DNA from: Asanoa siamensis
GTDB taxonomy: Bacteria > Actinomycetota > Actinomycetes > Mycobacteriales > Micromonosporaceae
Reading direction: 5' to 3'
DNA length: 64,000 nucleotides
Assembly: GCF_016862555.1 (NCBI RefSeq)
Contig: NZ_BONE01000003.1
Location: 1-64,000 of the forward strand
Under the pieces are notes generated by a model that made no database searches, was not told where the DNA came from, and saw only the letters and a program-made list of their open reading frames with translations. Both the position numbers and the translations under genes were made by a program. Below, in pieces: positions 2,760 through 24,425 of this stretch. Numbering within the stretch: position 1 is the first letter of the stretch; each line of letters begins with the position of its first letter.

Positions 2760-4795
2760 CCGCACCCGAGAAGCCCGCGAAGGCGACCCCCGGCCGGCTG
2801 CCCGCCGCCGGACGCCGGCCCGCCGGTGGTGGTCCACCGTGGATGTCGGCCGGCATGCCGACCGAGAAGTCCATGACGTTCGTACCGTCGGCGAAGCGCC
2901 TGTTGCGCCGGCTCTCCCCGTACCGTGCCCAGTTGTCCCTGGTCATCCTGCTCGCGGTGGCGAGCGTGGCGCTGTCGGTGATCGGCCCGAAGATCCTCGG
3001 TCACGCGACCGACGTGATCTTCCGCGGCGTGCTGGGTCGGCGGCTGCCGGCCGGCACCACGCTCGAGCAGGCCGCCGCGGCCGCGCGCGCCTCCGGCCAG
3101 AACAACTTCGCGGAACTGCTGCTCAAGACGCGGCCGATCCCGGGTGTCGGCATCGACTTCCACCAGCTCGGCCGGATCCTGATGCTCGTGCTGGGCATCT
3201 ACGTGGTGGCCAGCGTGCTCGGCTGGCTGCAGGGCTGGGTGCTCAACGGTGTCGTGCAGAGCGCGACCCGCAAGCTGCGCGCCGACGTCGAGGACAAGCT
3301 CAACCGGCTGCCACTGCCCTACTTCGACAAGCAGCCGCGCGGTGAGCTGCTCAGCCGGGTCACCAACGACATCGACAACGTCTCGCAGAGCCTGTCGCAG
3401 ACGCTGTCGCAGCTGCTGACCTCGCTGCTCACCGTGATCGGCGTCGTCACGCTGATGTTCGTGATCTCGCCGCTGCTCGCGGTCGTCGCGCTCGTCGCCG
3501 TACCGCTGTCCGTGGTGGTCACGCAGCAGATCGGCAAGCGGTCGCAGAAGAAGTTCATCGCGCAGTGGACGCACACGGGCCGGCTCAACGCGCACATCGA
3601 GGAGGCGTTCACCGGCCACGAGATCGTCAAGGTCTTCGGCCGGCGGCGCGAGGTGGAAGCCGACTTCGAGACCAAGAACGACGAGCTGTTCAAGGCCGCG
3701 TTCGGCGCCCAGTTCATCTCCGGGATCATCATGCCGGCGATGTTCTTCATCGGGAACCTGAGCTACGTGGTGATCGCCGTGCTCGGCGGCCTGCGGGTGG
3801 CGTCGGGCTCGATGACGCTCGGCGACGTGCAGGCGTTCATCCAGTACTCGCGGCAGTTCACCCAACCGCTGACCCAGGTGGCGTCGATGGCCAACCTGCT
3901 GCAGTCGGGTGTCGCGTCGGCCGAGCGGGTGTTCGACCTGCTGGACGCCGACGAGCAGGTGCCGGACCCGTCGCCCGCCGTCGAGGTGAAGCAGCCGCAC
4001 GGGCGGGTCGAGTTCGAGCACGTCTCGTTCCGCTACACGCCCGACAACCCGCTGATCGACGACCTGTCGCTGGTCGCCGAGCCGGGGCACACCGTGGCGA
4101 TCGTCGGACCGACGGGGGCCGGCAAGACCACGCTGGTCAACCTGGTCATGCGGTTCTACGAGCTGGACGGCGGGCGGATCACGCTCGACGGCGTCGACAT
4201 CACGACGATGAAGCGTTCGACGTTGCGCGGCGAGATCGGCATGGTCCTGCAGGACACGTGGCTGTTCGGGGGGACGATCCGGGACAACATCGCGTACGGG
4301 AATCCTGGCGCTTCGGATCGGGAGATCCAGGCGGCGGCCGAGGCGACGTTCGTGGACCGGTTCGTGCGCAGCCTGCCGGACGGCTACGACACGGTGATCG
4401 ACGAGGAGGGCAGCAACGTCAGCGCGGGTGAGCGGCAGCTCATCACGATCGCGCGGGCGTTCCTGTCGGATCCGTCGCTGCTGATCCTGGACGAGGCGAC
4501 GAGCTCGGTCGACACGCGTACGGAGGCCTTGCTGCAACGGGCCATGGCGGCACTGCGGTCCGACCGCACGAGCTTCGTGATCGCGCACCGGCTCTCCACT
4601 ATCCGCGACGCGCACCTGATCCTGGTGATGGAGAAGGGCAGGATCGTCGAGCAGGGTACGCACGAGGAACTGCTGTTGGCCGGTGGCGCGTACCGGCGGC
4701 TGCATGACGCGCAGTTCACCCAGGCGGCGGTTGACCTTGATTCCGGGTCCGCCGACGGGGGAATCGCGCTCGCGGGGGCACCGGCACAACGCTAG
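2756..4795 (+). CDS. ABC exporter subunit B (TMD-NBD), catalytic ATP-site half
   Basis: A 679-residue partner of the preceding half-transporter. A Pro/Gly-rich N-terminus of about 40 residues precedes the membrane domain, and an inserted extracytoplasmic loop of some 50 residues follows the first helix, as in many actinobacterial exporters. The NBD has Walker A GPTGAGKTT (about 451), canonical Walker B LLILDEATSS with catalytic Glu, and switch His (IAHRLST). Its signature is SAGER rather than SGGQR, which is the expected partner defect for the degenerate site of subunit A. ATG 2756 overlaps the upstream stop (ATGA). Together the two subunits make a heterodimeric pump with one active ATP site. 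Confidence 0.93.
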   Translation: MTAPEKPAKATPGRLPAAGRRPAGGGPPWMSAGMPTEKSMTFVPSAKRLLRRLSPYRAQLSLVILLAVASVALSVIGPKILGHATDVIFRGVLGRRLPAGTTLEQAAAAARASGQNNFAELLLKTRPIPGVGIDFHQLGRILMLVLGIYVVASVLGWLQGWVLNGVVQSATRKLRADVEDKLNRLPLPYFDKQPRGELLSRVTNDIDNVSQSLSQTLSQLLTSLLTVIGVVTLMFVISPLLAVVALVAVPLSVVVTQQIGKRSQKKFIAQWTHTGRLNAHIEEAFTGHEIVKVFGRRREVEADFETKNDELFKAAFGAQFISGIIMPAMFFIGNLSYVVIAVLGGLRVASGSMTLGDVQAFIQYSRQFTQPLTQVASMANLLQSGVASAERVFDLLDADEQVPDPSPAVEVKQPHGRVEFEHVSFRYTPDNPLIDDLSLVAEPGHTVAIVGPTGAGKTTLVNLVMRFYELDGGRITLDGVDITTMKRSTLRGEIGMVLQDTWLFGGTIRDNIAYGNPGASDREIQAAAEATFVDRFVRSLPDGYDTVIDEEGSNVSAGERQLITIARAFLSDPSLLILDEATSSVDTRTEALLQRAMAALRSDRTSFVIAHRLSTIRDAHLILVMEKGRIVEQGTHEELLLAGGAYRRLHDAQFTQAAVDLDSGSADGGIALAGAPAQR

Positions 4796-4798
4796 GGT
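4793..4798 (+). promoter_or_regulatory. -10 box TAGGGT, leaderless start of GNAT gene
   Basis: TAGGGT overlaps the stop of the ABC gene and ends 7 nt before ATG 4806; no Shine-Dalgarno intervenes. Confidence 0.4.
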
Positions 4799-4805
4799 CC
4801 CTCGC

Positions 4806-5366
4806 ATGATTCACGTGGAACAGGCGACGGCGGCTCACCGCCAGCAGGTGGTCGAGACCGTCGTCGCCGCGTTCGACCAGGATCCGGCGTTCCGCTACTT
4901 CTTCCGCGACCCCGTGACCAGGGACGCCGAGGCGGCCGAGTTCGCCGGGCACCTGTTCGACATGCGCGTCGGACCGGGGACGACCTGGGTCGTCGAGGGC
5001 GGGCTGTCGCTCGCGATGTGGGACTCGCCCGCGGGGTGGTCCGACAACCCTGAGCCCAAGTTGACTGTCTCCGACGACGCGCTGGCTCGGCTCGACGACT
5101 ATCACCGGGCAGTCCAGGGGTTGTTCCCGCGGCGGCCCGAACCGTTCTGGTACCTCGGTGTGCTCGCGACCCACCCGTCACAGGCGGGTCGCCGGTTTGG
5201 CCGCTCGGTGATGAAGCCGGGCCTGGCGGCGGCCGCCGCGGCCGGGTTGCCCGCCTACCTGGAGACGACCAACCCGGCGAACGTCGCGCTTTACGAGCGG
5301 GCCGGCTGGCGGGTGAGCGGCAGCACACACCTGGATGATCTTCCGATCTGGGTGCTCACCCAGTAA
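4806..5366 (+). CDS. GNAT family N-acetyltransferase
   Basis: A 186-residue protein of the GNAT superfamily, which moves an acyl group from acyl-CoA to an amine. The C-terminal half carries the acetyl-CoA-binding pattern: the strand WYLGVLATHPSQAGRRFG with a Q/R-x-x-G-x-G/A-like turn, then AYLETTNPANVALYERAGW, the typical last strand and Tyr loop. ATG 4806 follows the ABC gene by 10 nt but has its own -10-like TAGGGT. It could be co-transcribed with the exporter and modify its substrate, but this is inference; the acceptor is unknown. Confidence 0.88.
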   Translation: MIHVEQATAAHRQQVVETVVAAFDQDPAFRYFFRDPVTRDAEAAEFAGHLFDMRVGPGTTWVVEGGLSLAMWDSPAGWSDNPEPKLTVSDDALARLDDYHRAVQGLFPRRPEPFWYLGVLATHPSQAGRRFGRSVMKPGLAAAAAAGLPAYLETTNPANVALYERAGWRVSGSTHLDDLPIWVLTQ

Positions 5367-5374
5367 CGTAGGCC

Positions 5375-5513
5375 TCTGCGAAGGGGAGTAGCTCCCAACG
5401 CGGTGGTCGACACACTGGCATCTCCGGACGCCCGGCCACCCGACCTCAGGCTTCCTGGGGTGAGCGAGACCTTCGACTACGGCAGTTGATCAATTGCCGG
5501 GTCGAAGTCTCGC
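5375..5513 (+). promoter_or_regulatory. yybP-ykoY (Mn2+) riboswitch with switching hairpin
   Basis: The segment AAGGGGAGTAGC (5381-5392) and the distal GAGCGAGACCTTCG (5462-5475) match the two conserved loops of the yybP-ykoY manganese aptamer, with P1 formed by CGAAGG (5379-5384) and CCTTCG (5470-5475). The same distal strand can instead fold into a long hairpin, GCGAGACCTTCGAC (5464-5477) with GTCGAAGTCTCGC (5501-5513), enclosing a second stem CGGCA/TGCCG. The two folds exclude each other. The gene downstream is a UPF0016 Mn exporter, the usual client of this riboswitch. Confidence 0.85.
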
Positions 5514-5555
5514 GCTGTCCTCGACCCGGTGACCGCACCCGGGGAGGGTCTTTCC

Positions 5556-6143
5556 GTGTCAGGCTTCATGGCCGCACTCGCCATCAGTTTCGGCGTCATC
5601 TTCGTGGCCGAGTTGGGCGACAAGTCCCAGCTGATGGCGATGACGTTCGCGACGCGCTATCGCGCGCTGACGGTGCTGATCGGCATCACCGCGGCCACCG
5701 CGATCGTCCACCTGGTCTCGGTGGCGGTCGGGTACGGCCTGGGCGCCACGCTGCCCACCGACTGGATCAGCCTGGCGGCGGGCGTGGCGTTCCTGGCCTT
5801 CGCGGCGTGGACCCTACGGGGTGACTCGCTGACGGAGGAGGAGAAGTCGAAGGCGCAGCGGTCCGGCCGGTCGGCCGTGTTCGCCGTCGGTGGCGCCTTC
5901 TTCCTGGCGGAACTCGGTGACAAGACGATGCTGGCGACGATCACGCTGGCGACGCAGCACGGCTGGTTCGGGGTGTGGATCGGCTCGACGGTGGGCATGG
6001 TCGCGGCGGACGCGCTGGCGATCGTGGTCGGCCGCATGCTCGGGAAGCGGCTTCCGGAGAAGGCCATCAAGTGGGGTGCGGCCGCCCTGTTCGTCATCTT
6101 CGGCATCTGGCTGATCGCGGAGGCGCTGGTCGAGCTGGTCTGA
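5556..6143 (+). CDS. UPF0016/Gdt1 family manganese exporter
   Basis: A 195-residue polytopic membrane protein with two internal repeats, each bearing the family motif E-x-G-D-(K/R)-(T/S): ELGDKS near residue 18 and ELGDKT near residue 119. These acidic motifs form the cation path in the UPF0016/TMEM165 family, whose bacterial members (MntX, Mnx) export Mn2+. The length of about 190 residues is typical. GTG 5556 is chosen because GGGGAGG sits 8 nt upstream; a GTG at 5529 would add nine residues but has no ribosome binding site. The Mn2+ riboswitch in the leader supports the function. It ends at a strong bidirectional terminator. Confidence 0.92.
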   Translation: MSGFMAALAISFGVIFVAELGDKSQLMAMTFATRYRALTVLIGITAATAIVHLVSVAVGYGLGATLPTDWISLAAGVAFLAFAAWTLRGDSLTEEEKSKAQRSGRSAVFAVGGAFFLAELGDKTMLATITLATQHGWFGVWIGSTVGMVAADALAIVVGRMLGKRLPEKAIKWGAAALFVIFGIWLIAEALVELV

Positions 6144-6144
6144 T

Positions 6145-6173
6145 GCCAAACGGGCGGAATCCGCCCGTTTGGC
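6145..6173. terminator. Bidirectional hairpin terminator
   Basis: GCCAAACGGGCGG-AAT-CCGCCCGTTTGGC, a perfect 13-bp stem between two convergent genes (stops at 6143 and 6176). Confidence 0.85.
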
Positions 6174-6175
6174 GT

Positions 6176-7180
6176 TTAGTTCCCGACGCCGAGGGTGGAC
6201 ATCCACGCCGACGGGTAGCGGTCGCCGCGGGCGGCGCCCGCCGGCACCGCCGCTTCGATCTCCGCGCGGTCGTCCGCGGTCAGCTTCAGCTCGATCGCGG
6301 GCAGGGCTTCGGTCAGGCGCTCACGGGTACGCGGGCCGACCAGCGGCACGATGTCGTCGCCTTGGGCGGCGACCCAGGCGATGGCCAACTGGGCCACGGT
6401 GCAGCCCTTGGCCTCGGCGACCCGGCGCAGCGCGTCGACCAGGGCCAGGTTGTGTTCGACGTTCCCGGCCGCGAAACGCGGGCTCAGGACGCGGTAGTCG
6501 CCCGGGCCGGCCGTGTGGCCGGCGGTCCAGTGGCCCGAGAGGAGGCCGCGGCCGAGGATCCCGTACGCGGTCAGCCCGATGCCCAGCTCCCGCAGCGTGG
6601 GCAGCACCTCCGCCTCGACCGCGCGGGACAGCAGCGAGTACTCGATCTGCAGGTCGGCGATCGGGTGCACGGCGTGGGCGCGTCGGATCGTCCGGGCGTC
6701 GACCTCGGAGAGGCCGATGTGTCGCACGTACCCGGCGTCGATCATCTCTTTGATCGCCCCGATCGTGTCCTCGATCGGGACCGTCGGGTCGAGCCGGGCC
6801 GGCCGGTAGATGTCGATGTGGTCGGTGCCGAGCCTGGTCAGGGAGTACGCGAGGAAGTTCCGGACGGCTTCGGGACGGCTGTCCTGCCCGGCGGCCTCGT
6901 GACCGGGCCCGCGCTGCTGGCCGAACTTGACGCTGAGCTGGTAGCTGTCCCGCGGGCTGCCGCGGAGGGCCTCGGCGAGGAGCAACTCGTTGTGGCCCAT
7001 GCCGTAGAAGTCGCCGGTGTCGACCAGTGTGACGCCGGCGTCCAGGGCGGCGTGCACGGTCGCGATGGCTTCGGTGCGGTCGGCGGCCCCGTACGCGCCG
7101 GACATGCTCATCGCGCCGAGCCCGAGCGCGGAGACGGCCGGTCCGGTGGTGCCCAAGGTTCGTGTCTGCATGTGCTCCAC
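6176..7180 (-). CDS. Aldo/keto reductase
   Basis: A 334-residue NADPH-dependent (alpha/beta)8-barrel oxidoreductase. Family marks are the N-terminal LGLGAMSMSGAYG strand, the catalytic Tyr in DFYGMGHNE, and the C-terminal NADPH-binding segment VPLVGPRTRERLTEAL. It resembles the AKR13/YakC group that reduces aldehydes and ketones. GTG 7180 is taken as the start because GGAGGAG lies exactly 7 nt before it; ATG 7171 is alternative. It is divergent from an XRE regulator at 7274, a pairing that suggests control by that regulator. Confidence 0.92.
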   Translation of the reverse strand: MEHMQTRTLGTTGPAVSALGLGAMSMSGAYGAADRTEAIATVHAALDAGVTLVDTGDFYGMGHNELLLAEALRGSPRDSYQLSVKFGQQRGPGHEAAGQDSRPEAVRNFLAYSLTRLGTDHIDIYRPARLDPTVPIEDTIGAIKEMIDAGYVRHIGLSEVDARTIRRAHAVHPIADLQIEYSLLSRAVEAEVLPTLRELGIGLTAYGILGRGLLSGHWTAGHTAGPGDYRVLSPRFAAGNVEHNLALVDALRRVAEAKGCTVAQLAIAWVAAQGDDIVPLVGPRTRERLTEALPAIELKLTADDRAEIEAAVPAGAARGDRYPSAWMSTLGVGN

Positions 7181-7273
7181 GCTGCTTCTCCTCCGTGCGG
7201 CTGGGAAGGGAGCGTTCATCGTGGGAGTGCCGCTCCCTGGATCGGCGCGCGGGCCGCGAGGCAGCATGGGTTG

Positions 7274-9036: not shown

Positions 9037-11433
9037 CTATGCGGTGAAGCGGAGCTTCGCGCGTCGGGCGCGCAGGAAGAGCGCCGCACCCGCCGCGACC
9101 ACGACCGCGCCGGTGCCCGCGATCAGCAGGGCCGGAGCGCCGGTCAGCGGCAGGCTGCCACCGTCGGAGCCCGTGCCGCCGCCCGTGCCGCCGCCGTTGT
9201 CGTTGCCGCCCGGCTTGAAGACCTTCTTCGCCTGGCCCAGGCGCATGAAGACCGTCTCGCCCGTCGCGTCCTCGACCCCGTCGTTGTCCGTGACCGCGAA
9301 GACCTCGCCGTTGCCCGCGATCGTCAGGCCCTCGACCTTGTCCTGCACCCAGCCGTTGTCCGCCTCGAGCAGCGGCAGCAGGTCGACCGCGAGCTTCTTC
9401 GAAACCGTCGGCAGGGGCGCAACACCGAGATCAGCCGGTACGTCGAACGTGTAGACCTTCTTGACCGTCGCCTTCAGGCCGCGCTGGTTGTCGCGCTCGA
9501 TCACCGCGAAGGTGTCGTTGTCGACGGGTACGAGCTCGGACAGGCCGATCCAGGCACCCGCCGGCGCGGCGTCGAGCTGGTAGCCCAGCCACGCCCACTT
9601 CTTGTCGGCCACCGAGTAGCGGCCGATCCGGACCGTGCCCTTCGCGTCGCCCTTGAGCTCGCGCTGCACGGCGACCCAGACCTGCTCGCTGTTGCCGGCG
9701 CCGGTGATCGCCACGCCCTCGAGGCCGTTGCTCGTCACGTTCGCCGCGACGTCGGCCGGCAGCGGGATCTCCTCCTGCACCGCACCCTTCGCGTCGAGCC
9801 GGACGATCATGTTGGGCTTCGCGGCGGTGCCGTCGCCCTCGATCGCGATCCAGTAGCCGCCCGTGGCGCGGGCCGCGACACCCTCGGCGTCGTACCCGAT
9901 CGGCTGGCCGCCCTTGGTGACCGTCAGCTCCGACTTGACCAGCGCCGGCTGCTGCGCCGTGTCGATCGTGAGCAGGCGGGTGGGGGTGTAGACGTTGTCG
10001 GTGATCGACACGACCTGGGCCGGCTGGCCCGGGACCGCGGACAGGCCGCTGAGCGCGCCCCAGGAGATAGGAGCCTTTTTCTGACCAGGCTCGTACGCCG
10101 AGCGGATGGTCGGGAACGCGCCCTTGTCCTTGCCGAACTTGAAGATCGTCACCGACGCGCGGATGCCGTCGTCGGGGAGGTCCTCCTCGCTGGAGACCAC
10201 GAGCAGGTCGCGCGACGGCACGGTGGTGACGCCTTCGGGGCCGTTCGTGGTCGGCATGATCTGCAGGAACTCGGGGCTCTTCGGCTTGCTGACGTCGTAC
10301 GCGGCGACGAAATTGCCACGCTCGGAGTTGACGAACAGCACCGGCTTGCCGCCGAACCTGCCGAACGCGACGCCCTCGGGCTCGGTGCCCTTCGCGTCCG
10401 AGCGGCCCTCGGGGTAGAGGCCGTGCGCGGCGGCGAGCCGGTCGAACGAGTTGCCGGCGTCGAAGATGACCTCGCCGTTGCGCTTCCAGATCGTGAAGCC
10501 GCGGGAGCCGCCCTCGTAGTCACCCTCGTTGGCGGTCGCGAACGTGTCGTCGTCGATCCAGGTGACGCCGTCGGGCTCGCGCTTGACGGTGACGCTGTCG
10601 TCCTGCGCGATCGTGCCGTCTTCCTCGGTGTCCACACCGGACAGCTTGACCTGGCCGGCGCTGAAGTCCTTGACGACCTTCTTCTTGGCCAGGTCGACGA
10701 TCGCGATGTGGTTGTTCTCCTGGAGCGTGACGACCGCCTCGTCGCGGCTGTTGATCGACACGTACTCGGGCTCCGGGTCGCTCGGGGCGACCTTGGCGAG
10801 GCCCTTGAGGTCGACGCGGTTCAGCGTCCAGTTGGTGGGGTTCTTCTTGAGGTCGACGATCTGCAGGAAACCGGCGGGCTTCTGCGGGAGCTGGCCGTCG
10901 TTGAGGTCCTCGTCGCGCTCGTTCTCGATCGCGATGGCCGCGAACTTGCCGCTCGGCGCGACGGAGACGGAGTCGGGCTGGCCGCCGAGCGCGATCGTGC
11001 GTACCTCCTTGCGGGTGTTCAGGTCGATGACCACGAGCACGCCGGAGGTGTTGACGAAGTCCTCGCTGGTGTTGACGACCGCGAGCACGTAGTTCTGGTG
11101 GACCGCCACGGAGGTGGGCTCGCCGGGCAGCGCGAACGTGCCGAGCGGCTTCGGCTTGGCCGGGTCCGAGATGTCGGTGAAGCCGAGGCGCTTTCCGGGG
11201 CTGTCGGTGGAGATCACGGTCTTGCCGTCGGCGCTGACCGCGCTGATCTCGGCGACGGTCTCCTGGTCCTCGGCGCTGTTCAGATAGACCGGAAAGGTCG
11301 CGAGCCGGGCGAAGCCGGGGTCCTTGTCGGCCGGCGCGGCGAACGCGGCCTGCCCGACCATTGCCGGGACGGTTATGAGGCCGGCGACCATTGCGGTCCG
11401 GACGAACCGGCCGGTCGCGCGTGGAACGGGCAT
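9037..11433 (-). CDS. LPxTG-anchored protein with choice-of-anchor-I and phytase-like domains
   Basis: A 798-residue exported protein. It has a Sec signal peptide ending near AAFAAPA, then a beta-propeller-like half with family phrases EPEGVAFGRFGG, YDVSKPKSPEF and NGPEGVTTVPS that recall the choice-of-anchor I domain. The second half (PIGYDAEGVAARATGGYWIA, NGLEGVAITG, WIGLSELVPVDNDTFAVIERD) resembles the esterase-like domain of the phytase family. A Gly/Ser linker leads to LPLTG (about 761), a hydrophobic helix and RARRAK, a complete cell-wall sorting signal. It should be displayed on the cell wall by a sortase; phosphate-ester hydrolysis is only a family suggestion. ATG 11433 has AGGGAG 7 nt upstream. 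Confidence 0.87.
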   Translation of the reverse strand: MPVPRATGRFVRTAMVAGLITVPAMVGQAAFAAPADKDPGFARLATFPVYLNSAEDQETVAEISAVSADGKTVISTDSPGKRLGFTDISDPAKPKPLGTFALPGEPTSVAVHQNYVLAVVNTSEDFVNTSGVLVVIDLNTRKEVRTIALGGQPDSVSVAPSGKFAAIAIENERDEDLNDGQLPQKPAGFLQIVDLKKNPTNWTLNRVDLKGLAKVAPSDPEPEYVSINSRDEAVVTLQENNHIAIVDLAKKKVVKDFSAGQVKLSGVDTEEDGTIAQDDSVTVKREPDGVTWIDDDTFATANEGDYEGGSRGFTIWKRNGEVIFDAGNSFDRLAAAHGLYPEGRSDAKGTEPEGVAFGRFGGKPVLFVNSERGNFVAAYDVSKPKSPEFLQIMPTTNGPEGVTTVPSRDLLVVSSEEDLPDDGIRASVTIFKFGKDKGAFPTIRSAYEPGQKKAPISWGALSGLSAVPGQPAQVVSITDNVYTPTRLLTIDTAQQPALVKSELTVTKGGQPIGYDAEGVAARATGGYWIAIEGDGTAAKPNMIVRLDAKGAVQEEIPLPADVAANVTSNGLEGVAITGAGNSEQVWVAVQRELKGDAKGTVRIGRYSVADKKWAWLGYQLDAAPAGAWIGLSELVPVDNDTFAVIERDNQRGLKATVKKVYTFDVPADLGVAPLPTVSKKLAVDLLPLLEADNGWVQDKVEGLTIAGNGEVFAVTDNDGVEDATGETVFMRLGQAKKVFKPGGNDNGGGTGGGTGSDGGSLPLTGAPALLIAGTGAVVVAAGAALFLRARRAKLRFTA

Positions 11434-11579
11434 GCTGAAACTCCCTGGTTTAGCGGACGTGATCTGCTTAGTCGCCTGCTCTGGCTTTTACTCGTCCGGA
11501 AAACCAACGGGCGGTGTCGTACGGGATGCGGAATCGTTTGCCGGGTCGCTTTATGCCCGGCCTGGCGGTGGTCTGTCCG

Positions 11580-12197
11580 TCAAACGTGGAGTGCGTTTCT
11601 CAACCGGGCCCGGTCGAGGTCGGTGAGGTACACGGCGGTACCCGGCTGTTGACGCCAACTCGCGTCGAGCGTGCCGGCATCGACGGGATCGAAGCCGAGT
11701 TCGTCGACCAGTCCCTCGACGACGCGCTTGGCGGCGGTGTCGTCGCCGGCGACCGGGAGCGCGATTCGTTTCTCGCCGGCGGGCCTGCCGTTGCGGTCGA
11801 GGCGGGGTGCGCTGATGTTGTTGAACGCCTTGACGACGTGCACGTCCGCGGGGAGTTGCTCGGCGAGCCAGCGGCTCGAGGTGACCGCCCGGTCGATGAG
11901 CGGCTCGATCTCGCCGTCGCGTTCCGGGTAGTAGTTGATGGCGTCGACGACGATTTTCCCGCGAAAGGCGTCTTTCGGAAGATCGGCGACGGCGTACGTC
12001 GGAATGGCGAGGACGACCACATCGGCGCCTTCGGCCGCATCGGTCACGGTGGCGGCGACGGCACCGGTCTGATCCGCGAGGGGCCGCAGCGACTGTGGCC
12101 CACGCGAGTTCGCGACGGTGACGTCATGTCCGAGTTCGCGGAAACGCCGCGTGAGCGCACCGCCGACCTTGCCTGAGCCGACAATCCCGATCCTCAT
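11580..12197 (-). CDS. NADP-binding oxidoreductase, F420-dependent NADP reductase-like
   Basis: A 205-residue Rossmann protein of the YqeC/Fno-like family: N-terminal RIGIVGSGKVGGALTRRF with GxGxxG, the NADP loop ANSRGPQSL, then VVVLAIPTYAVADL, VVDAINYYPERDG and VKAFNNISAPRL, the last typical of coenzyme F420H2:NADP+ oxidoreductase relatives. These transfer hydride between a flavin-like cofactor and NADP, although many actinobacterial paralogues are uncharacterised. ATG 12197 places the nucleotide-binding strand at residue 2, as usual for the family. Confidence 0.85.
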   Translation of the reverse strand: MRIGIVGSGKVGGALTRRFRELGHDVTVANSRGPQSLRPLADQTGAVAATVTDAAEGADVVVLAIPTYAVADLPKDAFRGKIVVDAINYYPERDGEIEPLIDRAVTSSRWLAEQLPADVHVVKAFNNISAPRLDRNGRPAGEKRIALPVAGDDTAAKRVVEGLVDELGFDPVDAGTLDASWRQQPGTAVYLTDLDRARLRNALHV

Positions 12198-19250: not shown

Positions 19251-20366
19251 ATGGGGAACCTTTCACGGCTACTGAAGGAAAGCTGGACCCTCGTCGAGGA
19301 GCAGCAGGACAAGGTCGCCGGTTACTTCTACGCACGCATTTTCCTGTCCAACCCGCACTTGCGGAACCTGTTCCCGGTGACCATGGACGTGCAGCGGGCG
19401 CGTCTGCTCGGCGCCATCGTCACGGCCGTGCAGTCGCTCGACGACCCCGACCGGTTCGAGGAATACCTGCGGCAGCTCGGAAAGGACCACCGCAAGTTCC
19501 ACGTGGAACCGGAGCACTACGACGTGGTCGGCGGTGCCCTGCTGGAGGCCCTGCGCACCTTCGCCGGCGAGGCCTGGAGCATCGAGTACGACCAGGCCTG
19601 GGGCGACGCGTACAACGTGATCGCCAAGAAGATGATCGCCGGCGCCGAGGCCGACACGAACCCGGCGTACTGGCACGCCGAGGTGCTCACCCACGAGCGC
19701 CGCGCCAAGGACATCGCGGTGATCACGTGCCGGCCGCTGCAATATCCGCTCGAGTTCCGCGCCGGCCAGTACGTCAGCGTCGAGGCACCGCGCTACCAGC
19801 CCCGCCTTTGGCGCACGTACTCGATGGCCAACGCCCCCAACAAGGAGGGCACGATCGAGTTCCACGTGCGCGCGCTGGGCGCCGGCTGGGTGTCGAGCGC
19901 CCTGGTCCGCCGCGTCCAGGTCGGCGACCTGCTCCGGGTCGCGGCGCCGATGGGCACGATGTCCCTCGACCGCAAGTCGACCCGCGACATCGTCTGCGTC
20001 GCCGGCGGCACCGGCCTCGCTCCGATCAAGGCGCTGATCGAGGAGCTGACCCGCTACAACCGCACGCGCTGGGTGCACGTGTTCTTCGGCGCCAAGGACC
20101 GCGACGACCTGTACGACCTACCGGAGCTCAACAAGCTGGCGGCCCGCTACCCGTGGCTGTCGGTGGTGCCGGCCTGCAGCGACGACAAGAACTTCGTCGG
20201 CGAACAGGGCAACGTCGGCGACGTGGTGGCCCGCTACGGCCCCTGGGGCGACCACGACTTCTTCGTCTCGGGCTCGTCCTCAATGGTCAAGAACACCCTG
20301 CGTACGCTGGCCGAGCTCAAGGTCCCCGCGGTCCGCATCAAGTACGACACCTTCGGCGACATCTAG
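19251..20366 (+). CDS. Flavohemoprotein (nitric oxide dioxygenase-like)
   Basis: A 371-residue two-part enzyme. Residues 1-135 are a globin; H80 in LGKDHRKF is in the position of the proximal heme ligand. Residues 145-371 are a ferredoxin-NADP reductase module with FAD motif RTYSMAN, NAD-binding GGTGLAPIKALIEEL and a C-terminal KYDTFGDI. Flavohemoproteins convert NO and O2 to nitrate using NAD(P)H in the cytosol. ATG 19251 is chosen because AAAGGG lies 7 nt upstream and the globin starts directly. The upstream palindrome may regulate it. It belongs to the actinobacterial branch that is shorter than E. coli Hmp (396). Confidence 0.92.
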   Translation: MGNLSRLLKESWTLVEEQQDKVAGYFYARIFLSNPHLRNLFPVTMDVQRARLLGAIVTAVQSLDDPDRFEEYLRQLGKDHRKFHVEPEHYDVVGGALLEALRTFAGEAWSIEYDQAWGDAYNVIAKKMIAGAEADTNPAYWHAEVLTHERRAKDIAVITCRPLQYPLEFRAGQYVSVEAPRYQPRLWRTYSMANAPNKEGTIEFHVRALGAGWVSSALVRRVQVGDLLRVAAPMGTMSLDRKSTRDIVCVAGGTGLAPIKALIEELTRYNRTRWVHVFFGAKDRDDLYDLPELNKLAARYPWLSVVPACSDDKNFVGEQGNVGDVVARYGPWGDHDFFVSGSSSMVKNTLRTLAELKVPAVRIKYDTFGDI

Positions 20367-20464: not shown

Positions 20465-21712
20465 GTGCCCACGACCCGGCTCGTGCCACGGCGGGCAGCG
20501 GCCCAGGTGAGCGCCGCGCTCGCCGACACCCGCGTGGTCCTGATCAGCGGGGCACGCCAGGTCGGCAAGAGCACGCTCGTCCGGCTGGTCGCCCAGGACC
20601 GCCTCGCCGAGCGCCGAGATCTGGACAGGGCGCAGGACCGGGCGGCGGCCCTCGCTGATCCGGTCGGCTTCGTCGACACGACCGAGCTGATGGCGATCGA
20701 CGAGATCCAGCGCGCGCCGGAACTGCTGCTGGCCATCAAGGCATCCGTCGACGAAGATCCACGTCCCGGCCGCTACCTCCTCACCGGCTCCTCCCGGCTG
20801 TTCGGGATGGTCGCCGCCCCGGACGCGCTGCCGGGCCGCATGGAAACCGTCGAACTCTGGCCGTTCTCGCAGGGGGAGTTGGACGGCACGCCGGACGGCT
20901 TCGTGGACGCCGTCTTCGCGTCCGGCCCCGACGTCGCGCACGAGTCGACGGTCACCCGTGCCGACTACGCCGCCCGGATCGTCCGCGGCGGGCTCCCGGA
21001 AGCCACCGGACGCGATGACCCCCAGCGCCGCGCACGTTTCTTCGACGGATACGTCCAGGCCCTGATCGACCGCGACGTCCGCCAGCTCTCCGACATCCAC
21101 CGCAAGGCCGAACTGCGCACGCTCGTACGCCTGCTCGCCGCGAGGTCGGCAACCACGATCGCGGCCAACTCGCTGGAGCGGGAACTCGGGCTGAGCCGGC
21201 CCACGGTCGCCCGCTACCTGCGCGCCCTCGAGGAGATCTTCCTCGTCAAGCGCGTCCCGGGCTGGTCGCGCAACCTCGGCACCCGGGCCACGGCGGCCCC
21301 GAAGCTCGTCTTCGTCGACTCAGGCATTGCCGCCAACGAACTCGCGATCGAGGCGCGGTCGCTGCTCCGCCCCGGTGCGCCCTTCGGGCCGCTGCTCGAG
21401 TCCTTCGTCCTCTCCGAGATAGCGCGGCAGCTGACCTGGTCCAGCCAACCGGTCGAGCTCTCGCACTACCGCGACCACAGCAAGTTCGAGGTCGACGCGG
21501 TGCTCGAGAACCGGTCCGGCCGGGTCGTCGGCGTCGAGGTGAAGGCGGCGTCGACCGTCGGACCGGACGACTTCCGGGGCCTGCGCCGGCTGGCCGAACG
21601 GCTGGGTGACGACTTCGTCACCGGCGTCGTCCTCTACACGGGCACCTCGACCCTGCCGTTCGGGGACAAGCTCCGCGCGATCCCCATCAGCGCGCTCTGG
21701 CAGGTTCAGTAG
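20465..21712 (+). CDS. ATP-binding protein, AAA_14/DUF4143 family
   Basis: A 415-residue P-loop ATPase: Walker A GARQVGKST (about residue 29), Walker B LMAIDEIQRAPELL, sensor YLLTGSSRLF, the PF13173 (AAA_14) set. The C-terminal DUF4143 part has a winged-helix-like segment (NSLERELGLSRPTVARYLRALEE is its core) and a restriction-endonuclease-like fold ending FEVDAVLE...VGVEVKA, the usual D-x-(n)-E-x-K pattern. Such proteins are widespread in accessory DNA and their role is unsettled. GTG 20465 is leaderless. It overlaps the convergent XRE-deformylase gene by 7 bp. Confidence 0.9.
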   Translation: MPTTRLVPRRAAAQVSAALADTRVVLISGARQVGKSTLVRLVAQDRLAERRDLDRAQDRAAALADPVGFVDTTELMAIDEIQRAPELLLAIKASVDEDPRPGRYLLTGSSRLFGMVAAPDALPGRMETVELWPFSQGELDGTPDGFVDAVFASGPDVAHESTVTRADYAARIVRGGLPEATGRDDPQRRARFFDGYVQALIDRDVRQLSDIHRKAELRTLVRLLAARSATTIAANSLERELGLSRPTVARYLRALEEIFLVKRVPGWSRNLGTRATAAPKLVFVDSGIAANELAIEARSLLRPGAPFGPLLESFVLSEIARQLTWSSQPVELSHYRDHSKFEVDAVLENRSGRVVGVEVKAASTVGPDDFRGLRRLAERLGDDFVTGVVLYTGTSTLPFGDKLRAIPISALWQVQ

Positions 21713-23301
21713 CTCCAGGGCACCCCGGACTCGCGGTATTCGGTGATCGGGACCAGCGGCGCTCCCGGTGGCATGCGCGAGTCGTAGAGGCGGCCCTCCA
21801 GATGGTCGATCTCGTGTGCCACCAGCCGGGCCAGGCCGCGCTCGAAGGTCGTCAGGCGGCGCGACCCGTTCCAGTCGGCGTGCTCGACCACTAGGCGCAG
21901 CGCCCGGGGCACCAGGCCGCGGACGTCGAAGAAGGACAGGCAGCCCTCGTAGCGCTCGTCCGACTCCGGTGACGCGTCGACCACCCGCGGGTTGACCAGC
22001 ACCAGCGGCTCGGCGGCCGGGTCGGGTGGGCGGACCACCGCGATCGCGACCGAGAGGCCTACCTGCGGCGCCGCCAGGCCCACGCCCTTGCTGAAGATGT
22101 GCATCTCCTCGATGCGTTCGAGGGCCGCGAACAGCCGGTCGACGACGTCCCGGCCCGCGGCCGCGTCCGACGGCAGGCGCAGCGGGACCGCCGGGTGCGC
22201 GAGCAGGGCACTGCCCCGCTGCACGACGCCGACCGACCGCATCCGCTCGCTCGGTGCCCGCGGCGCCTGCCGCTGCGCCGGCACGATCGCCGGGCGGGCC
22301 GGCTCCCACAGCTTCCGGCCGTTGGTGCCCAGCGACCCGGACACGGCCCGGAAGCGCCATTCCAGCCGGTACCGGGCGTTCAGCGTCGGCGCGTCCGTCG
22401 TCCACTCGAACAGCGTGCGGTCGCCCTCCGCGCGCCGGGCCACGGGCGTACGCAGCGGTGCCTCCTCCGCCGACAGCGACGTCTCCACGCCCCAGACCTG
22501 CGCGTCCAGCGCGGTCGGGAAGTCGAGGCGCACCGTCAGGCGCCGGGTGGGCAGGCGGACGGCCCGCTGGAACCAACGACCCCACTTCTCCGGGCTCACC
22601 GTGTACGCGTACTCGATGGTGACCCTCTCCCCGGGATAGAGCGGGAACCGGCCGTTCTCGTTCTCGAAGAGCAGCCACACCTCTTTGAACGCGTCCCGGT
22701 CGTGCTTCTTGCGCCACTCCATCGGCTCGCGCGCCGGCGGGTCGTCGCACCAGGCCCGCAGGTCGAGCTCCTCGAACGTCAGCGGGTGGTCGCGGTGGTG
22801 CTTGTTGGACAGCTCCGGGTCCTCGGGGTAGCGGTCGACGGCGACCCGCACCAGGTAGCGGGTGACCGGCTCCTTGCCCGCGTTGTAGAGCGAGCGGCGG
22901 ACGACCGTCCGGTAGGCGTCGTCGACGAACTCGAGCGTGGCGACCTCGTGCTCGACGATCAACCCGGTGCCGGGCGGCATCCACTGCTCGGGCACCGGCG
23001 GGTCGCGCTGCGGCTGGCCGGCGCCGCGGGCGTGCCGCAGCTCGTCGTAGTCCTGGAAGCGCAGCCAGATCGCGCCGCCGGCGCTGAGCACGGCCTCGGC
23101 GCGGCGGGCGAAATCTTCGGTGGGGCGGTGGCGGCGGCCCTCGACGTGGCTGACGTACGACGGGTCGAAGCCCATCTGCGTGGCCAGCTGCTTCTTCGTC
23201 AGGCCGCGTTCTACCCGCCAGCGCGACAGCTCGGCCGCGAACGACTCGGCGGCGCGTTCTATCGGCGAGATTGGTGAAGTCGGCGGCGGTGGGCTCGGCA
23301 T
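21706..23301 (-). CDS. XRE helix-turn-helix protein fused to a complete peptide deformylase
   Basis: A 531-residue fusion. Residues about 24-62 are an XRE helix-turn-helix (TKKQLATQMGFDPSYVSHVE, then GRRHRP). Residues about 90-330 form a beta-rich middle region (ATLEFVDDAYRTVVRRSLYN, YLVRVAVDRYP, GERVTIEYAYTVSPEKWGRW) of no family I can name. Residues about 385-520 are a peptide deformylase with all three motifs: GVGLAAPQVG, EGCLS with the metal Cys, and HEIDH with both metal His and the catalytic Glu. Deformylase removes formyl from nascent N-termini; joined to a DNA-binding domain it might sense formyl-peptides or regulate its own supply. ATG 23301 and GTG 23304 are both near AAAAGGGA. Not a frameshift artefact: the frame is open throughout. 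Confidence 0.87.
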   Translation of the reverse strand: MPSPPPPTSPISPIERAAESFAAELSRWRVERGLTKKQLATQMGFDPSYVSHVEGRRHRPTEDFARRAEAVLSAGGAIWLRFQDYDELRHARGAGQPQRDPPVPEQWMPPGTGLIVEHEVATLEFVDDAYRTVVRRSLYNAGKEPVTRYLVRVAVDRYPEDPELSNKHHRDHPLTFEELDLRAWCDDPPAREPMEWRKKHDRDAFKEVWLLFENENGRFPLYPGERVTIEYAYTVSPEKWGRWFQRAVRLPTRRLTVRLDFPTALDAQVWGVETSLSAEEAPLRTPVARRAEGDRTLFEWTTDAPTLNARYRLEWRFRAVSGSLGTNGRKLWEPARPAIVPAQRQAPRAPSERMRSVGVVQRGSALLAHPAVPLRLPSDAAAGRDVVDRLFAALERIEEMHIFSKGVGLAAPQVGLSVAIAVVRPPDPAAEPLVLVNPRVVDASPESDERYEGCLSFFDVRGLVPRALRLVVEHADWNGSRRLTTFERGLARLVAHEIDHLEGRLYDSRMPPGAPLVPITEYRESGVPWSY

Positions 23302-23498
23302 CACGCATCCCTTTTGGGGCCGGAACTCCCCTAGAAGGCCCGGAAATCCAGTCTGCTGCGCCGATCGGAAACCCGACCAGAAGTGCCGCGTTACCGACAA
23401 ATGCCTTGACAATCGTCGCGCAGTGCGACCTAGTCGATACGCCGCGAATTGTGGGGGTCACCCCAGATGAGTACTTGCCCACCCGGGCTCGAGTTTCT
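23302..23498. promoter_or_regulatory. Divergent intergenic region of XRE-deformylase and siderophore reductase
   Basis: Part of a 330-nt gap. On the plus strand TTGACA occurs at 23406-23411 with a weak CCTAGT-like -10 17 nt on. GTCGC/GCGAC flank GCAGT at 23414-23428, a short dyad that could bind the XRE protein. No gene or RNA is seen. Confidence 0.35.
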
Positions 23499-23519
23499 CT
23501 GGTTAGGCTAGCCTTAGCA
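23499..23519. promoter_or_regulatory. Iron box (DtxR/IdeR/DmdR-type operator)
   Basis: GGTTAGGCTAGCCTTAGC closely follows the iron-box consensus (TTAGGTTAGSCTAACCTAA family) and is near-palindromic around CTAG. It sits about 110-130 nt before the siderophore-reductase start, so an iron-loaded DtxR-family repressor should silence that gene when iron is plentiful. Confidence 0.85.
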
Positions 23520-23630
23520 CGCTATGGTGTTTCGGCTGGCGAGCCAGAGGTAACCGGCTAGCCATGGGCGATTCCGCGACGATGGGTGGGACTCCGTGAC
23601 GGCACGAACGAAGTTGGCGGTGTGGTCAAC

Positions 23631-24425
23631 GTGACCGCGACCATCGACTTCCGCGCGATGGCCGGCGCACCCTTCGACCCGATCAGCTCCACGCTGCGGT
23701 CGATGTTCGGCACAGACGATCTCCCCGGGCTCACCCGCGGGCTGCTGGTGCACGACCCGGCCGGCTGGATCCCGGCCTCGTCGCTCTCCGACGGCACCCA
23801 CCTGCCCCAACTGCTCGACGCGGCCGCCCGCCGCTGGCGCGGTTCACCGCACGCCGCCGCGGCGCTGGCCTGGAAGTCCTACAGCTACTGGCTGGCCCTG
23901 CCGGCCGTGCTGGGCTGGGCGTCGGCCCGCCGGGTGCCGCTGCTGCGCGCCGACGACGTGCTCGTGCACTTCGAGGACCACCGGCCCCTGCTGACGCTCG
24001 GTTACCGCCGCACGATCGACGTCGCGGTGCTGCCGTCGGACCCGCTGGCGATCTCTGGCCTGCCGGAGGTCGTGGTGGTCCCCGACGAGGCGGCGCTGCT
24101 GGAGACGTTCCGCGCGACGCTGCTCGACGAGCACGTCAACCCGCTGCTGGACGCGATCCACGGCCAGGTCCGGGTGGGCACCCGTACGCTGCTGGGCTCG
24201 GTCGCCTCGGGCGTCGCCTACGGCCTGCTCCGCGCGGCCGACTGGCTGCCGGGCTCGACCCGCGACAACATCGCGACGCTCCTGACCGCGCTGGAACTCG
24301 ACGATCTGATCGAACTCGTCGACGGGCCGGGCGGGCAACTCAACGTGCAGCGCAAGACGTGCTGCCTCGCCTTCACGCTCCCGCAGCCGAAGCTCTGCTC
24401 GGGCTGCGTCATCAAGCCTTCTTAA
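23631..24425 (+). CDS. (2Fe-2S) ferric siderophore reductase, FhuF-like
   Basis: A protein of about 264 residues with the FhuF-type C-terminus: KTCCLAFTLPQPKLCSGC, the CC-x(10)-C-x2-C pattern that binds a [2Fe-2S] cluster. The body (AALAWKSYSYWLALPAVLGW, ADDVLVHFEDHRPLLTLG) matches the family. These cytosolic proteins reduce ferric siderophores to release iron. The start is uncertain: GTG 23586, 23622 and 23631 are in frame and none has a strong ribosome binding site. The iron box upstream supports the role. Its 3' end is followed by repeat copy B. Confidence 0.88.
   Translation: MTATIDFRAMAGAPFDPISSTLRSMFGTDDLPGLTRGLLVHDPAGWIPASSLSDGTHLPQLLDAAARRWRGSPHAAAALAWKSYSYWLALPAVLGWASARRVPLLRADDVLVHFEDHRPLLTLGYRRTIDVAVLPSDPLAISGLPEVVVVPDEAALLETFRATLLDEHVNPLLDAIHGQVRVGTRTLLGSVASGVAYGLLRAADWLPGSTRDNIATLLTALELDDLIELVDGPGGQLNVQRKTCCLAFTLPQPKLCSGCVIKPS

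Follow-up and report, generated by a model that had tools for sequence, protein, structure and literature searches.

Why would a bacterium join a DNA-binding domain to peptide deformylase (PDF), the enzyme that strips newly made proteins of their formyl group? The question is raised by a gene in the 64,000-nucleotide stretch of Asanoa siamensis DNA analysed here (positions 1 to 64,000 of contig NZ_BONE01000003.1, hereafter the window), which encodes an XRE helix-turn-helix (HTH), a middle domain and a C-terminal PDF in one protein. An original prediction, made from the sequence alone, took the product for either a regulator that senses formylated peptides or metal state, or a deformylase acting only when released. 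The HTH-PDF fusion gene is real and conserved in soil-dwelling actinobacteria, and the reading that we favour, with a probability of roughly 0.55, is that it encodes a local, autoregulated transcription factor that would use an apparently active PDF as its sensor, on a plan like that of the regulator BzdR.

The open reading frame and Pfam agree with the predicted architecture of 531 residues with an N-terminal XRE HTH and a C-terminal PDF: the coding part (21709-23301 on the minus strand, followed by a stop codon at 21706-21708) runs uninterrupted for 531 amino acids, the HTH_31 match scores 45.3 bits against a cut-off of 27, which places the domain in the XRE/HTH_31 group, and the Pep_deformylase (PF01327) match scores 100.1 bits against 22.8, so the C-terminal part is deformylase-like on a domain search as well. 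Between the two, Pfam finds no named domain. Solved PDFs in the PDB match residues 376-511 by sequence, with E-values down to 2.6e-18. Since the NCBIfam peptide-deformylase models all match below their cut-offs (the best at 94.7 bits versus 125), the window PDF is a divergent one.

A contig scan recovered 11 loci (three in Asanoa, two in Phytohabitans, three in Plantactinospora, two in Micromonospora and one in Spirilliplanes) with 66-88% identity to the window protein over the best segment; one of them, L011, carries a frameshift between the middle domain and the PDF. Within the order, 63 of 298 genomes match the window protein at E<=1e-20. These include 46 of the 54 listed genomes of the same family, Micromonosporaceae, the source genome among them, and the eight listed family members that lack a match fall in two genera; the other 17 matching genomes belong to other families, some with split genes or fragments only (for example G004, G156, G204). 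A profile of the middle domain matches 23 of 394 genomes in a sample of the class and 3 of 396 in a sample of the phylum (E<=1e-6, own genome included in both). Against six orthologues, the ratio of non-synonymous to synonymous substitution rates (dN/dS) is 0.02-0.23 for the HTH (residues 15-80), 0.11-0.36 for the middle domain and 0.10-0.53 for the PDF, a pattern that indicates purifying selection on all three domains; for the linker it is 0.67-1.7. An assembly error, which the original prediction had named as a way to be wrong, or a chance fusion is ruled out by the presence of the architecture across genomes, the invariant motifs and the low dN/dS. Phage origin was likewise rejected: 154 of 50,697 phage records match, none across more than 80% of the protein, and the best 15 of these 154 cover query residues 306-524, mainly the PDF.

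Is the PDF still an enzyme? All three deformylase motifs, including the metal Cys and HEIDH, had been called intact, and the motif alignments confirm this: GVGLAAPQ, EGCLS and HEIDH are invariant in the window protein and ten Micromonosporaceae orthologues, bar one Leu/Met substitution (EGC[L/M]S) and Ile/Val substitutions (HE[I/V]DH). In what we take to be Escherichia coli numbering without Met1, Cys90, His132, His136, Glu133, Glu88 and Arg97 are present in 95 of 95 PDFs of this kind (distinct sequences, fused or separate, many of them closely related) and Gln50 in 94, the remaining one having a gap. Among 127 PDF-bearing gene calls, a set that includes repeats and the canonical PDFs of the source genome, eight miss the strict motif pattern: three read EGCLA and five differ at motif I, the latter including two canonical PDFs and two short fragments. 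The surroundings of motif II are mostly YEGCLSFFDxRG-like. In a tree of 87 PDFs, 56 fused or signature-bearing sequences separate from 31 canonical ones with a split support of 100/99, a split at which the program warns that long branches meet; the placement of L062 is unsure, and as the labels 'fused' and 'split' come from script-called starts plus the signature and are wrong for some loci (L115 and L122 among them), we use the canonical split alone. A housekeeping role is unlikely because the source genome encodes five PDFs in all, i.e. four besides the fusion, one of which (L014) directly precedes an fmt-like gene, as read by eye; ten other genomes have three to seven PDFs each, the HTH-fusion kind included.

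With its catalytic residues intact, the PDF of the fusion is apparently active, which bears on the foremost alternative, that it is a retired enzyme kept just as a ligand-binding module. According to part of the published account of BzdR (PMC3602430), that regulator has the same plan of DNA-binding domain, linker and enzyme-derived effector domain, and the replacement of EGCLS by EGCLA in two distinct members (3 of the 127 calls, two being one gene) also speaks for retirement and counts against an active sensor. However, once an enzyme is retired, losses among its metal ligands, catalytic Glu and substrate Arg are to be expected, and all of these are present in 95 of 95; we consider retirement unlikely.

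The fusion is not the only form in which the HTH, the middle domain and the PDF occur together. On Streptomyces cellulosae plasmids the HTH-middle gene overlaps a separate PDF gene by 4 bp, in L050 the two lie 4 bp apart, in L047-L049 an opposite-strand gene sits between them, and on plasmids L116 and L124 fragments of the HTH and of the middle domain come before a PDF gene that overlaps them. Parts that are fused in some genomes and adjacent in others are commonly coupled in function, which suggests coupling here. The proposal of a deformylase acting only when released found no support in our analysis, which did not look for a cleavage site, and the parts are separate genes in some lineages. 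We also observed that a group of Frankia-like loci (L129-L140 and L146; the name is a guess) combines the same middle-PDF core with an N-terminal HTH that has diverged further, with an HTH_31 match of E=3.4e-6 in L139 and one below the cut-off in L129.

The placement of the gene points to local regulation. Its upstream neighbour is divergent in 79 of 81 start-called loci (Frankia-like loci excluded, lineage repeats included), the exceptions being L055 and L056. All 51 of 51 long called genes in Micromonosporaceae have a divergent upstream neighbour, which amounts to one inherited arrangement with at least two loci counted twice. Among representatives of other lineages (23 loci that are not near-copies, of which L067 and L185 were dropped for having no family gene in the table, leaving 21) the neighbour is divergent in 20, some at more than 1 kb and one, L125, only because the gene caller missed genes annotated in the record. 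The corresponding figure for other genes in those same loci is 42 of 177.

Direct repeats lie in the promoters of two lineages, often about one helical turn apart and differing in sequence, and could be operators. Across 49 Micromonosporaceae upstream regions, a conserved block contains GTCAAG/GTCG pairs, 41 at 12 bp and four at 11 bp. At up to three mismatches the block has a single site in the source genome, and a backwards control also gives one match; the block may be a promoter rather than an operator. Outside this family, the word YTCAC, chosen after it had been seen in the promoters, occurs at least twice in 20 of 33 upstream regions versus 12 of 286 controls (110 bp), and at least three times in 10 of 33 versus 3 of 286; with near-copies dropped, 16 of 23 regions have at least two. 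The pairs are restricted to loci in which the PDF is fused or overlapping, where 16 of 18 representatives have them; the misses are L056 and L125, the annotated start of the latter being possibly late. A 28-bp repeat pattern, derived from the same promoters that it detects, is found once per genome and always at a gene of the fusion kind in five of seven genomes, with none in the backwards control. Together with the divergent neighbour and the overlapping or adjoining two-gene versions, the repeats lend support to the regulator that the original prediction had suggested.

Several observations weigh against this reading, beside the after-the-fact choice of both promoter patterns. The baseline is higher in a wider set of loci, where 244 of 472 other genes lie divergent from their upstream neighbour, so that divergence by itself is less telling than 42 of 177 implies. 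Of the 13 Frankia-like loci, eight have a divergent neighbour, four a same-strand one and one a neighbour that could not be assigned, with gaps of 530-2090 bp, and the gene calls come from an unvalidated script. YTCAC words are absent from 48 of 49 Micromonosporaceae upstream regions, and 11 HTH-middle loci with a separate PDF or none (L046-L050, L055, L057-L061) have zero or one; the PDF is missing altogether from the HTH-middle proteins of L055 and L057-L061. The spacings of the YTCAC words are mixed, 15 of 31 at 10-12 bp and 11 of 31 at 4 bp, in 19 regions picked after the repeats had been seen and leaving out L046, L050 and L058, which are without repeats. The 28-bp pattern is missing from two of the seven genomes, and a single common operator for all HTH-middle-PDF genes is not supported, the repeat sequences differing by lineage. 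Lastly, the full-length AlphaFold model is poor (mean predicted local distance difference test score, pLDDT, 52) and was not used. The recounts of the divergence baseline and of all 33 regions weaken single numbers, not the regulator reading.

The mechanism that we propose for an autoregulated transcription factor runs as follows. The HTH would bind the promoter repeats of its own gene, which lie in the intergenic region common with the divergent gene or operon, and would control both its own gene and that gene or operon. The middle domain would couple the HTH to the PDF and perhaps help to hold a peptide or a metabolite. Occupancy or chemistry of the PDF site, be it a formylated peptide, loss or oxidation of the metal, or a metal-chelating metabolite, would then alter DNA binding.

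For Micromonosporaceae, the intergenic region gives a hint at what might be sensed. Within 420 bp upstream, all 48 of 48 loci have a match with at most five mismatches (38 with four, 10 with five) to the 19-bp sequence that we take to be the IdeR/DmdR iron-box consensus, while in 240 base shuffles of the upstream DNA the best match has 6-10 mismatches. The divergent neighbour in the window is an FhuF-like gene, with its FhuF and FhuF_C matches both above the Pfam cut-off, whose cluster is found in 52 loci, and a cluster of flavohaemoglobin-like genes lies near the fusion in 51 loci (repeats included in both counts). Native PDF holds an oxygen-sensitive Fe(II) as its metal, which would suit a metal or redox sensor; together the iron box and the nearby FhuF-like and flavohaemoglobin genes hint at such sensing. 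The gene on the other side, a tail-to-tail AAA_14/DUF4143 ATPase gene (20507-21712, plus strand) whose end runs into that of the fusion gene, was rejected as a partner: it stands beside the fusion in the window and in L001, and is not called there in L003, L004 and L010.

Table. Features of the HTH-PDF locus in the window, with the basis of each assignment
Feature	Positions	Strand	Basis
XRE HTH - middle beta domain - peptide deformylase gene	21706..23301	-	531 aa, with stop
XRE helix-turn-helix (HTH_31), residues 21-77	23071..23241	-	Pfam E=1.1e-11
Middle beta-rich domain, residues 110-320	22342..22974	-	alignment, predicted fold; no Pfam name
Fast-evolving linker, residues 321-352	22246..22341	-	dN/dS 0.67-1.7
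Peptide deformylase domain, residues 387-511	21769..22143	-	Pfam Pep_deformylase E=1.2e-28
PDF motif I GVGLAAPQ, residues 406-413	22063..22086	-	orthologue and PDF alignments
PDF motif II EGCLS with metal Cys, residues 452-456	21934..21948	-	orthologue and PDF alignments
PDF motif III HEIDH, residues 496-500	21802..21816	-	orthologue and PDF alignments
Conserved promoter block, GTC direct repeats 12 bp apart; putative operator for autoregulation, or promoter part	23391..23412	-	49 upstream regions
Candidate IdeR/DmdR-type iron box in the intergenic region between the two divergent genes	23498..23516	+	4 mismatches to 19-bp consensus
FhuF-like (2Fe-2S) protein gene, divergent conserved neighbour	23622..24425	+	Pfam FhuF E=1.1e-5, FhuF_C E=1.8e-4
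Flavohaemoglobin-like gene, one gene away in the window	19251..20366	+	Globin + FAD_binding_6 + NAD_binding_1

The middle region, described at the outset as beta-rich and unnamed, is indeed without a Pfam name and, by prediction, beta-rich. Eighteen diverse copies align over about 210 residues; no Pfam family matches the window copy above its cut-off (DUF3857 reaches 16.4 bits versus 24.6), and among the 18 copies the matches are all weak, with a best E of 0.0088 (AraC_binding_2, one row) and DUF3857 in four rows at E=0.0094 or worse. An AlphaFold model built from 11 sequences is mainly beta (mean pLDDT 72.3, predicted template modelling score 0.72). The best 50 Foldseek rows name M1-type aminopeptidases, Ost1/OST subunits, the inter-alpha-inhibitor heavy chain and 3kd4 at E-values of 1e-6 to 2.5e-5 and template modelling scores by query of 0.38-0.48; target ranges are not given, and we infer that the aminopeptidase matches lie in the N-terminal beta domain. 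The predicted fold may resemble the beta domains of the M1-aminopeptidase/Ost1/DUF3857 type. In a PDB profile search the matches were to three designed proteins, across stretches of some 50 residues (E-values from 4e-5 to 0.23).

The middle domain is mobile among protein architectures. In L054, an ATPase-like protein (9477-11828, minus strand; the ATPase part read by eye) carries it, and a second one (4444-7200, minus strand) joins an ATPase-like part, with an nSTAND3 match below cut-off, to the middle domain and then to an inositol-monophosphatase (Inositol_P). In L062 (5811-7967, minus strand), Trypsin_2 (E=7.2e-8, above cut-off) precedes the middle domain and a PDF, without an HTH. The PDF-less HTH-middle genes of the five genomes L057-L061 have a nucleotidyltransferase-like gene nearby and, downstream, a gene resembling alpha/beta hydrolases (both read by eye), and two genes away, kept in all five, lies the gene of a 1300-aa TPR protein with a weak NB-ARC match.

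Such company raises the alternative of an immunity or conflict system, in which the middle domain, as an adaptor, would connect an HTH, STAND-like ATPase or trypsin-like protease on the sensor side with a PDF or inositol phosphatase on the effector side. The two ATPase-middle proteins of L054, one with Inositol_P, would fit it, as would the L062 protein, which has a weak PADLOC match to RT-Protease_XI (E=5e-4), and the large TPR protein near the XRE-middle gene of L057. Yet the main form is conserved across one family next to the same neighbour, the three Pfam-tested window neighbours are not known defence genes (one being the above ATPase, with its unkept position), the window protein itself has only weak HTH matches in PADLOC, and part of a large survey of such systems (PMC7159879) makes no mention of deformylase. 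Pfam finds no nucleoside triphosphatase or protease domain in the window protein, these partners being seen in some other middle-domain carriers only. We hold a conflict system to be somewhat less probable still than a retired enzyme.

Plasmids add a different set of neighbours. In 14 of the 17 plasmid records examined (of 20 matching, near-copies included) the gene stands divergent at a distance of 134-443 bp from its neighbour, and the remaining three copies are broken, split or remnants. Thirteen of the 14 face biosynthetic-type genes, by the incomplete annotation of the records: glycosyltransferases; QueD/QueE/FolE-type genes; a D-Ala-D-Ala ligase; radical S-adenosylmethionine (SAM)/SPASM genes; a methyltransferase with AMP-binding and ketosynthase genes; a nonribosomal peptide synthetase (NRPS) and a racemase; and, on one plasmid, a dTDP-glucose dehydratase with an ATP-grasp, opposite a regulator gene that continues into a transposase. 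The fourteenth faces a PemK-like operon. On plasmids L115, L118 and L119, the QueD-, QueE- and FolE-type genes opposite the regulator stand beside thymidylate-kinase and radical-SAM or NRPS genes, and these clusters perhaps make 7-deazaguanine natural products. Among the other loci, L069 has an opposite operon of the graspetide type (Actino_peptide, MvdD-type pre-ATP-grasp, PCMT). L144, where the regulator frame looks broken, and L185 belong to different families, and in both the regulator faces oxidoreductase-, DegT- and NUDIX-like genes, as read by eye, a recurrence that speaks for local regulation. The HTH-PDF coupling is hidden in the plasmid records because they name one part only, either 'peptide deformylase' or 'helix-turn-helix/XRE regulator'.

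That the PDF is a pathway or resistance enzyme, deformylating a cluster product or protecting against a PDF inhibitor while the HTH controls its own gene only, would fit the mostly biosynthetic-type operons opposite the plasmid copies and the PDF gene lydA placed within the lydiamycin cluster in part of a published report (PMC12130866), but is the least probable of the alternatives given that the operons have no chemistry in common (glycosyltransferases, QueD/QueE/FolE, NRPS, radical SAM, graspetide type) and that the Micromonosporaceae neighbour is an FhuF-like gene.

Going beyond a local, autoregulated transcription factor, we tentatively raise the possibility, to our minds a rather doubtful one, of a regulator class that reads N-terminal protein processing with an active PDF domain, through formyl-peptides or the metal state of the PDF, and switches neighbouring genes. 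The metal state would report iron or redox stress or PDF-inhibiting antibiotics, the aminopeptidase-like middle domain would hold the peptide, and the genes switched would include small biosynthetic clusters on actinomycete plasmids. If true, bacteria would have turned the enzyme that deformylates new proteins into a gene switch, tying translation or iron/redox status to gene control. Since the switch sits opposite several kinds of gene cluster, it could offer a handle on silent clusters of actinomycetes, and PDF-directed antibiotics may also shift gene expression in these organisms.

How does this protein compare with known systems? The original prediction knew of no characterised protein of this architecture, and none is described in the titles and abstract openings listed by full-text searches of open-licence papers, a scope with subscription papers and preprints outside it. 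Canonical PDFs (def) share with it the Pfam Pep_deformylase domain, the three motifs and the metal ligands; the fusion kind differs in forming a separate clade, in falling below the NCBIfam cut-offs and in being joined to HTH and middle partners. In the trigger enzymes PutA, BirA and NadR, an enzyme and a DNA-binding part share one protein and the state of the enzyme sets binding; none of them is known to use a PDF, and their enzyme serves the regulated pathway, whereas the window PDF has no evident link to its neighbours. Pairs of an XRE repressor and an IrrE (ImmA) metalloprotease, an HExxH-type metal hydrolase of a family different from PDF, are sometimes fused. The likeness here is that an XRE regulator goes with a metal hydrolase bearing an HExxH-type motif, as two genes or as a fusion. 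According to part of a published account (PMC7907104), a redox or zinc signal acts on IrrE, the metal hydrolase that controls the DdrO repressor. This is also where the two differ: IrrE proteolyses DdrO, while PDF removes a formyl group and is not expected to act as a protease. The closest plan is that of BzdR, in which, again from part of its description (PMC3602430), the effector is bound by a shikimate-kinase-like domain linked to the DNA-binding part, and the loss of enzyme activity is essential. Both proteins join an N-terminal DNA-binding domain through a linker to an enzyme-derived C-terminal domain; the window protein lacks the shikimate-kinase-like domain, Pfam finding a PDF there, and it has an extra beta domain in between and has kept all its catalytic residues. 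What is new is the divergent placement, the promoter direct repeats, the adjacent or overlapping HTH-middle and PDF genes and the middle domain in other architectures; the HTH-PDF fusion is an unexpected type of sensor in a familiar kind of protein.

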